Below, piece by piece: positions 61,023-63,315 of a DNA stretch of 63,315 bases. The stretch covers positions 1-63,315 of the forward strand of contig CABYPE010000004.1 in NCBI GenBank assembly GCA_902520685.1, in the 5' to 3' direction. The position numbers and the translations under genes are program-made. Numbering within the stretch: the stretch's first letter is position 1; each line of letters opens with the position of its first letter. The DNA comes from an uncultured Pelagibacteraceae bacterium. GTDB taxonomy: Bacteria; Pseudomonadota; Alphaproteobacteria; Pelagibacterales; Pelagibacteraceae. The notes below the pieces were generated by a model. The model was given only the letters and a program-made list of their open reading frames with translations, ran no database searches and had not been told where the DNA came from.

Positions 61023-61486
61023 TAATAGGTAATATTTATTTACTAATATCTAAAGTATTACATTAATTAATTAATATAAACTATTGTATTTATTATATTT
61101 TATTAATAATATGATAATATAATTATTATAAAAATTTCAGTTTTTTTAACACTAAAATACTCTTATTTAACACATAACAATTTAAGTTATTGTCTAATTT
61201 TAAAAAAAATTAAATAATCCTTTAAAATGAGGGTTTTTTAACATTTTTATTACAAAATTATTTGAAAAATAGGGTAGTCTAAAAACGTTAATATAGTTGA
61301 ATAGTAGAGCGATGCACTAATTGAATATACCATTTAAACGGCTATAGAGGGGTCTATTTTAAGTGAAGGCTCGTTAGTGGCACAACTGAAGGGTGAATTA
61401 TGCTATTTAACAAGAAAATATACAAAAACTCAAAAAAACGTTGATTTTAATGACTTTTTTAATGTAAAAAAAGCCTCAAAATAGGG

Positions 61487-61756
61487 TTAAATCACTACCT
61501 TTTCAGATCTAAGTAATCTTAGCTTTTGCTTAATTCCACCTACTCCAGAGTAGCCTCCAAGGGCTCCATCAGATCTAATCACTCTATGACAAGGTATTTT
61601 TGGTGAATATGGGTTTTTAGCGCAAGCATTAGCTACTGCACGAGCTGATTTAGGGCTTTTTATACCTATAGCGACCTCTTTATAGGTTTTTACCTTGCCC
61701 TTTGGTATAGTTTGAAGGTATTTCCAGACTTTTAATTGAAATTTCGTTCCTTTCAT
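61487..61756 (-). CDS. Short methylated-DNA--protein-cysteine methyltransferase domain protein (MGMT/Ogt C-terminal domain)
   Basis: FQLKVWKYLQTIPKGKVKTYKEVA; AVANACAKNP; IPCHRVIRSDGALGGYSGG-like; active-site PCHR present. Confidence 0.9.
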   Translation of the reverse strand: MKGTKFQLKVWKYLQTIPKGKVKTYKEVAIGIKSPKSARAVANACAKNPYSPKIPCHRVIRSDGALGGYSGVGGIKQKLRLLRSEKVVI

Positions 61757-61938: not shown

Positions 61939-61982
61939 AATTTTTATAATTTAAACTATTGACATATAAAATCACTTAATAT

Positions 61983-62017
61983 ATTACTAATGATAATTAA
62001 TGGTTATCAATAGTAAT
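61983..62017. repeat. 14-7-14 near-perfect inverted repeat immediately upstream of the tyrosine recombinase (candidate core site or operator)
   Basis: ATTACTAATGATAA-TTAATGG-TTATCAATAGTAAT; 13/14 arm positions complementary; ends one base before ATG at 62019. Confidence 0.6.
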
Positions 62018-62018
62018 T

Positions 62019-62972
62019 ATGAATGAACTGACAACAGACCTAAAATCGCTTCATGAGGCAACTTTAAATAATCTCAAAAACTCTAAAGCACATAATACTT
62101 TAAGAGCATATAAATCAGACTTTAAAGATTTTGGAGCTTTTTGCGCCAAGCATAATTTGAATTCTTTGCCATCAGAACCTAAAATAGTTTCTTTATACCT
62201 AACCAATCTCTCTAAAAATTCAAAAATCAGTACTTTAAAAAGAAGATTAGTGTCAATAAGTATGGTGCATAAACTTAAAGGATATTATTTAGACACAAAA
62301 CATCCAATTATTGTTGAAAATTTAATGGGACTCAAAAGAGTGAAAGGAAGCATTCAAAAAGGTAAAAAACCTATATTAATCAATCATTTAAAATTATTAA
62401 TTAATGTAATAAATGAACAAAAAATTCAGAATATTAAGAAATTTAGAGACAAATCAATCATCCTAGTAGGCTTTGGAGGTGGCTTTAGGCGAAGTGAGCT
62501 TACTTCTATTGATCATGATGATCTAGAATTTGTACCTGAAGGTCTGAAAATCACTATCAGAAGATCAAAAACTGATCAATTCGGTGAAGGAATGGTCAAA
62601 GGACTACCCTACTTTACCAACGAAAACTATTGCCCGGTAGTTAATCTTAAAAAGTGGCTAGAAATTTCTAAAATTAAATCTGGTCCTATTTTTAGAAGAT
62701 TTTCTAAAGGTTTATCTTTATCAGAAAAAAGATTAACTGACCAATCAGTAGTTTTATTAATGAAAGAATATTTAAATTTAGCAGGTATTGAAAATAAAAA
62801 CTTTGCTGGTCATAGTTTAAGGTCTGGTTTTGCAACAGTAGCCGCTGAGTCTGGAGCAGACGAACGAAGTATAATGGCTATGACTGGTCACAAGACTACA
62901 CAAATGGTTAGAAGATATATTAGGGAAGCAAACTTATTCAAGAATAATGCACTAAATAAAATTAAAATTTAA
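62019..62972 (+). CDS. Tyrosine recombinase/phage-integrase family protein (solo)
   Basis: SAM-like N-terminal domain (HNTLRAYKSDFKDFGAFC); catalytic GGGFRRSEL, HSLRSGFATVAAESG, MTGHKTTQMVRRYIREA. Confidence 0.93.
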   Translation: MNELTTDLKSLHEATLNNLKNSKAHNTLRAYKSDFKDFGAFCAKHNLNSLPSEPKIVSLYLTNLSKNSKISTLKRRLVSISMVHKLKGYYLDTKHPIIVENLMGLKRVKGSIQKGKKPILINHLKLLINVINEQKIQNIKKFRDKSIILVGFGGGFRRSELTSIDHDDLEFVPEGLKITIRRSKTDQFGEGMVKGLPYFTNENYCPVVNLKKWLEISKIKSGPIFRRFSKGLSLSEKRLTDQSVVLLMKEYLNLAGIENKNFAGHSLRSGFATVAAESGADERSIMAMTGHKTTQMVRRYIREANLFKNNALNKIKI

Positions 62973-63315
62973 TTTTATTAAAAATATATTTAACTTTATT
63001 TATTAATAAATCGAGAAACATTAAAAGATTCAATTTTGGTTCATTTAGAGAACCATTAAAGGGTATTATCGAATTATTACCTTTTAAATAATATTTTCTA
63101 AAAAATTTTGGATTGAAACCATACTTTAATAAAAAGGTTTTAGTTCCATTATTCAATTTTATTTTATTATTTCTAGTTGTTAGTGAATTAAAATGATAAA
63201 CTTTAAATTTAGATATACCTTTGAAAATCCTTACATTGTTAAGCCATAACTTCATACATAAATCAGGATCAGATCCATCACCAGGATTAAATTCTTCACT
63301 GAAACCACCAATTTT
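62962..63315 (-). CDS. Glycosyltransferase family 2-like protein, C-terminal part (5' end beyond window)
   Basis: Frame is open to the window edge: KIGGFSEEFNPGDGSDPDLCMKLWLNNVRIFKGISKFKVYHFNSLTTR...; GGF...DPDLCMK and YHF are GT2-like. Confidence 0.7.
   Translation of the reverse strand, partial: KIGGFSEEFNPGDGSDPDLCMKLWLNNVRIFKGISKFKVYHFNSLTTRNNKIKLNNGTKTFLLKYGFNPKFFRKYYLKGNNSIIPFNGSLNEPKLNLLMFLDLLINKVKYIFNKIKF

Follow-up and report, generated by a model that had tools for sequence, protein, structure and literature searches.

We analysed a window of 63,315 nucleotides of Pelagibacteraceae (SAR11) DNA and consider it highly likely that an inverted repeat at 61983-62017 is a recombination site, which together with the adjacent recombinase would serve the Pelagibacteraceae as a chromosome dimer resolution system with one recombinase, a plasmid-derived system of Cre/lox type that would have replaced XerCD/dif. 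The locus comprises the following elements:

61983 to 62017, plus strand: proposed recombination (dif-equivalent) site of type A, a 14-7-14 dyad found once per genome and always 5' of the recombinase gene
61983 to 61996, plus strand: left arm ATTACTAATGATAA, with an invariant GATAA inner part and outer bases that covary with the right arm between site types
61997 to 62003, plus strand: asymmetric 7-nt spacer TTAATGG (TTAATTG in most relatives)
62004 to 62017, plus strand: right arm TTATCAATAGTAAT, from site comparison among relatives
62019 to 62972, plus strand: solo tyrosine recombinase of 317 aa, matching Pfam Phage_integrase (1.1e-18) and Phage_int_SAM_1 (SAM-like core-binding)
62916 to 62918, plus strand: codon of the predicted nucleophile Tyr300, within an invariant RRYI motif

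The sequence-only reading, made from the letters of the window, had described a dif- or loxP-like dyad directly before the start codon of a solo recombinase, and its coordinates and sequence proved to be exact. The 35-mer ATTACTAATGATAA-TTAATGG-TTATCAATAGTAAT is complementary at 13 of 14 arm positions, and only base 62018 lies between it and the ATG (62019) of the 317-aa open reading frame, a gap that holds no Shine-Dalgarno sequence. An Rfam search matched no RNA family at the dyad. Dyads of this length had been estimated to occur about once per window, and simulation agreed with this estimate. Simulated sequence yielded 0.95 dyads with 14-bp arms, no more than one mismatch and a spacer of 4-10, compared to three found in the window. 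With the same arm criteria and a spacer of exactly 7, the dyad at 61983-62017 is the sole example in the window (0.1 expected). The dyad per se is unremarkable by chance, and since a dyad of such quality lies near chance level, the argument must rest on position and conservation, of which conservation is decisive.

Allowing up to three mismatches, the 35-mer was recovered from 45 genomes, with one copy in each and the recombinase gene adjoining every time. The whole-genome search suggested earlier thus revealed the recombinase locus only and no second copy. The exact core GATAA-N7-TTATC (GATAATTWATKGTTATC, 17 bp) is present as a single copy in all 112 recombinase-bearing Pelagibacteraceae among 148 genomes of the order, and sits just 5' of the recombinase gene in each of them. 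It was found in none of the remaining 36 genomes, which include 11 family members without the recombinase and the sister family. The module is missing from 11 of about 123 Pelagibacteraceae genomes, all of them draft assemblies, is present in 11 of 11 single-contig genomes of the set and is spread over six genera of the family. Most genomes of the genus possess one orthologue of the recombinase, and the matching genomes of public collections all belong to the Pelagibacteraceae. Alignment of the regions upstream of the orthologues, likewise proposed beforehand, revealed that arms and spacer are both conserved. In particular, the spacer reads TT[A/T]AT[T/G]G, in one orientation relative to the gene, in 72 of 72 sites compared in full; these sites were found by their core columns, and conservation of the core itself is better judged from the 148-genome count. 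An asymmetric spacer with fixed orientation is more than a plain symmetric operator would need. A dyad of mere chance is ruled out by the conservation across genomes.

The sites fall into two types. The majority are type A, with ATTACTAAYGATAA arms, and type B sites read TTCCGATAA-TTAATGG-TTATCGGAA. The type B arms are altered at outer positions 6 and 7, symmetrically on both sides, and all 21 distinct type B sites are paired at these positions. Loss of conservation, or arm mutations without compensatory changes, had been named as grounds for giving up the proposal, and neither occurred. The recombinase differs between the two types in one segment:

62694 to 62729, plus strand: segment of about 12 residues, RRFSKGLSLSEK, found in type A only, with agreement of protein and site type in 44 of 44 cases

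This segment lies between the conserved CPV and GHSLR motifs and is present in all type A recombinases (23/23) and in no type B recombinase (0/21). The match between segment and site type needs just two changes on the recombinase tree, so that the 44 agreeing cases are not independent and reflect one or two events. Since both site types occur within each of the genera g1, g6 and g9, the recombinase and its site seem to move or be retained together.

The recombinase has the catalytic set of a tyrosine recombinase (R157, K184, H265, R268, H291 and Y300), which is invariant among 21 relatives. The Phage_integrase model matched one tyrosine recombinase in most genomes of the genus. The protein is not an XerC/XerD orthologue. 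A search for XerC and XerD elsewhere, advised by the sequence-only reading, showed that the pair is absent from the Pelagibacteraceae. The window's genome scored 65.7 bits (cut-off 329.6), and no match of the family to the XerD model exceeded 87 bits, whereas nearly all genomes of the sister family contain two strong matches (about 320 and 250 bits). Of 38 genomes, 37 encode the FtsK gamma domain, the window's own among them.

Comparison with the GC-skew terminus had also been called for. In all four complete genomes compared, which represent two genera and have chromosomes of 1.28-1.44 Mb, the best-fit plus-to-minus GC-skew switch was located no more than about 4 kb from the site (switch at 615-617.5 kb and site at 617.6; 160-162.5 and 160.1; 995-997.5 and 998.9; 1015-1017.5 and 1013.4), with fits that drew on samples of 28-60% of each genome. 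The site may offer a simple way to mark the terminus in SAR11 genomes. Conserved arms and spacer, paired arm changes, a single copy, terminus position and the absence of XerC and XerD elsewhere all support the earlier suggestion that the dyad is the recombinase's own target, as in a solo Xer-like system, and we regard this as very probable. In the mechanism that we propose, four recombinase subunits would bind and pair two copies of the site in a dimeric chromosome, and cleavage and strand exchange within the 7-bp spacer would yield monomers. FtsK, which retains its gamma domain in these genomes, would juxtapose the terminus sites during division.

Glycosyltransferase-like genes at 62962-63315 (minus strand) directly adjoin the recombinase, as they also do in genome G012, and the proposed terminus site therefore appears to border a surface-polysaccharide region. 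Upstream of the dyad, a non-coding stretch of 464 bp (61023-61486) lies between EamA-like and MGMT-like open reading frames and shows about 73-80% identity over nearly its full length to many relatives. No Rfam family matched this stretch even at E<=1, and it is a candidate for a conserved RNA or regulatory region. The MGMT-like frame (61487-61756, minus strand) encodes 89 aa resembling O6-methylguanine-methyltransferase, with the DNA-binding domain only and the PCHR motif retained.

Outside SAR11, the nearest proteins (39-44% identity) are encoded on plasmids of Alicyclobacillus, Paenibacillus, Sporosarcina and Iodobacter and annotated as 'site-specific integrases'. Like the SAR11 recombinase, most of them have a similar dyad nearby; they differ in being plasmid-borne and in the larger distance of the dyad, which lies 30 to 900 bp from the gene start. 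A dyad of the form ATAA-N6..8-TTAT (the CGATAA-N6/7-TTATCG kind), with at least 10 of 14 arm positions paired, was detected near the gene in 16 of 28 relative loci (14 of 25 distinct ones, as three loci were read twice), compared to 0.15 expected. An Alicyclobacillus plasmid carries ATTAGTATCGATAA-GATAAAG-TTATCGCTAGTAAT, and another relative CTAACTTCCGATAA-TTTAACG-TTATCAGAAGTCAG. The group of plasmid and chromosomal recombinases with CGATAA-N6/7-TTATCG near their genes spans Bacillota and Pseudomonadota and is apparently a little-described family of modules. Among solved structures the recombinase matched XerA, XerD and Cre, the match to Cre extending over the whole length. In a phylogenetic tree, SAR11 recombinases, plasmid relatives and Cre were placed apart from XerC/XerD with support of 100/100, a grouping that calls for caution because long branches are involved. 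The records of the plasmid relatives say only 'site-specific integrase'; these proteins probably act in multimer resolution. A module from such Cre/lox-type plasmid recombinases would then have taken the place of XerC, XerD and dif.

The sequence-only reading had offered an autoregulatory operator as an alternative role of the dyad. Two elements bear on this:

61959 to 61964, plus strand: -35 element TTGACA of a candidate promoter; TTGAC[A/T] and a -10-like element lie 5' of 72 of 72 sites
61982 to 61987, plus strand: candidate -10 element TATTAC at 17-nt spacing, overlapping the left arm and proposed from conservation

Several type B relatives have TATAAT as -10 element. A generic promoter scan did not report the candidate promoter. 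The site and the start region of the promoter-like sequence overlap in all genomes inspected. Because the -10 element overlaps the left arm, transcription should begin inside the site and a bound protein should repress it. Given this overlap, a recombinase bound at the -10/start region probably also represses its own gene, and this part of the suggestion is likely to hold. As the sole role it is unlikely. If the dyad were only an operator, with recombination targets elsewhere or lost, the TTGACA-type promoter at all 72 sites, with its -10/start region covered by the dyad, would be accounted for. However, the invariant asymmetric spacer, the lack of another genomic copy that could be the true target and the terminus position would not, and the dyads of the plasmid relatives have no fixed promoter position. 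In strain HTCC1062 the xerD-annotated gene SAR11_1019, which we infer to be the orthologue of the window's recombinase, shows an 8.5-fold increase in mRNA under sulfur limitation, where recA also rises (PMC5069961), and xerD and recA increase in light (PMC3090418). One such recombinase gene is found in genome G178, at 997.9-998.8 kb.

When the site was searched against 50,697 phage records, the best matches were pelagiphages. HTVC100P contains an intergenic ATTACTAACGATAA-TTAAAG-TTATCAATAGCAAT, after which comes another dyad whose right arm is of type B. In HTVC035P a type A and a type B dyad stand in tandem. In HTVC106P a weaker dyad of type A precedes the type B TTCCGATA-TTAATCG-TTATCGGAA, and Greip (Greip EXVC021P) has a type A dyad. 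No simulated sequence matched the type A score of any of these four. Most other HTVC010P-type phages were weaker or negative for the site, as was the control phage Venkman. In the four phages the mimics lie in an intergenic stretch beside the terminase region, and in three of them A and B (or half B) stand in tandem. Relatives of HTVC010P were termed lytic because no integrase was detected (PMC6811365). It is possible that these pelagiphages use the host recombinase via the mimics, and we consider this a lead. A terminase search of 347 genomes revealed no integrated HTVC010P-type prophage at the site; it gave seven relatives, with no site-like dyad in the stretches read.

These data also bear on a dyad that would be the attachment site of an integrated phage or island, with the gene a domesticated integrase without housekeeping role. 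The match of the protein to phage integrase families and the adjoining glycosyltransferase-type genes would fit such an origin. Nevertheless, the site occurs once per genome with no second att site, the module is widespread in six genera of one family, the terminase search revealed no such prophage at the site, and an empty site without the gene was never seen among 148 genomes, which makes this explanation very improbable. Least credible is an RNA hairpin in a very short leader controlling translation of the recombinase, since, despite the missing Shine-Dalgarno sequence and a dyad that in most genomes ends a few bases before the start codon, the dyads of relatives lie far upstream, also on plasmids of another phylum, those of pelagiphages are intergenic, and the spacer sequence is fixed beyond any need of pairing.

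The dimer resolution system remains our preferred interpretation. We only tentatively extend it to a full history, for which we see somewhat less than an even chance: a SAR11 ancestor captured a Cre/lox-type plasmid module that replaced XerCD/dif, two specificities arose, and HTVC010P-type pelagiphages now hijack the system via paired A/B mimics. If so, paired A and B mimics would let phages lacking an integrase join the chromosomes of type A and type B hosts alike, or interfere with them, and the lifestyle of integrase-less pelagiphages becomes testable. SAR11 is among the most abundant bacterial groups, and P. ubique had served as an example of streamlining that removed dif/Xer. The function is probably present after all in SAR11, exchanged for a plasmid-type system.

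According to Carnoy and Roten, Pelagibacter ubique lacks a dif/Xer system, and dif-less proteobacteria were not known to have a Cre/loxP-like one (PMC2731167). Three of the properties used there to recognise dif were found for the SAR11 site, namely a position near the GC-skew terminus (4/4), a single copy (112/112) and conservation among relatives, whereas homology to a characterised dif is less clear. With XerC/XerD-dif the SAR11 system shares a tyrosine recombinase, ATAA...TTAT inner arms, terminus position and the FtsK gamma domain. However, the inner ATAA/TTAT is the only sequence that it shares with characterised dif sites, the spacer is 7 bp instead of 6, and one recombinase, outside the XerC/XerD branch and not orthologous to either protein, stands in place of two.

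XerH/difH and XerS/difSL are also single recombinases that form one module with a gene-adjacent site at the terminus (PMC5357621; PMC2731167), and the site is linked to the recombinase gene in SAR11 as well. The site sequence is different, the SAR11 protein is shorter (317 aa compared to about 355), its spacer is 7 bp compared to 11 (difSL) and 6-10 (difH), and its similarity to the XerS model is below the cut-off. XerL/dif of the Legionellales is a parallel case from a separate lineage: a group thought to lack dif/Xer proved to possess a terminus site and one divergent recombinase, a system that came to light through a mobile element carrying a mimic of dif (PMC9765430).

Cre/loxP, which serves plasmid dimer resolution in phage P1, resembles the SAR11 module in having one recombinase with one site and a GHS-type motif. 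Moreover, the arms of some relatives (CTAACTTCCGATAA) have TAACTTC in common with the loxP arm ATAACTTCGTATA, as the reverse complement of the P1 lox half-arm. Identity to Cre is low, and the spacer is 7 bp compared to 8. The SAR11 site touches the gene start, while lox lies about 430 bp from cre, and the SAR11 module is chromosomal and placed at the terminus. Placing loxP/Cre at the terminus of E. coli suppresses its dif defect (PMC2731167), and the SAR11 module would be the natural counterpart of this engineered exchange of dif for loxP/Cre.
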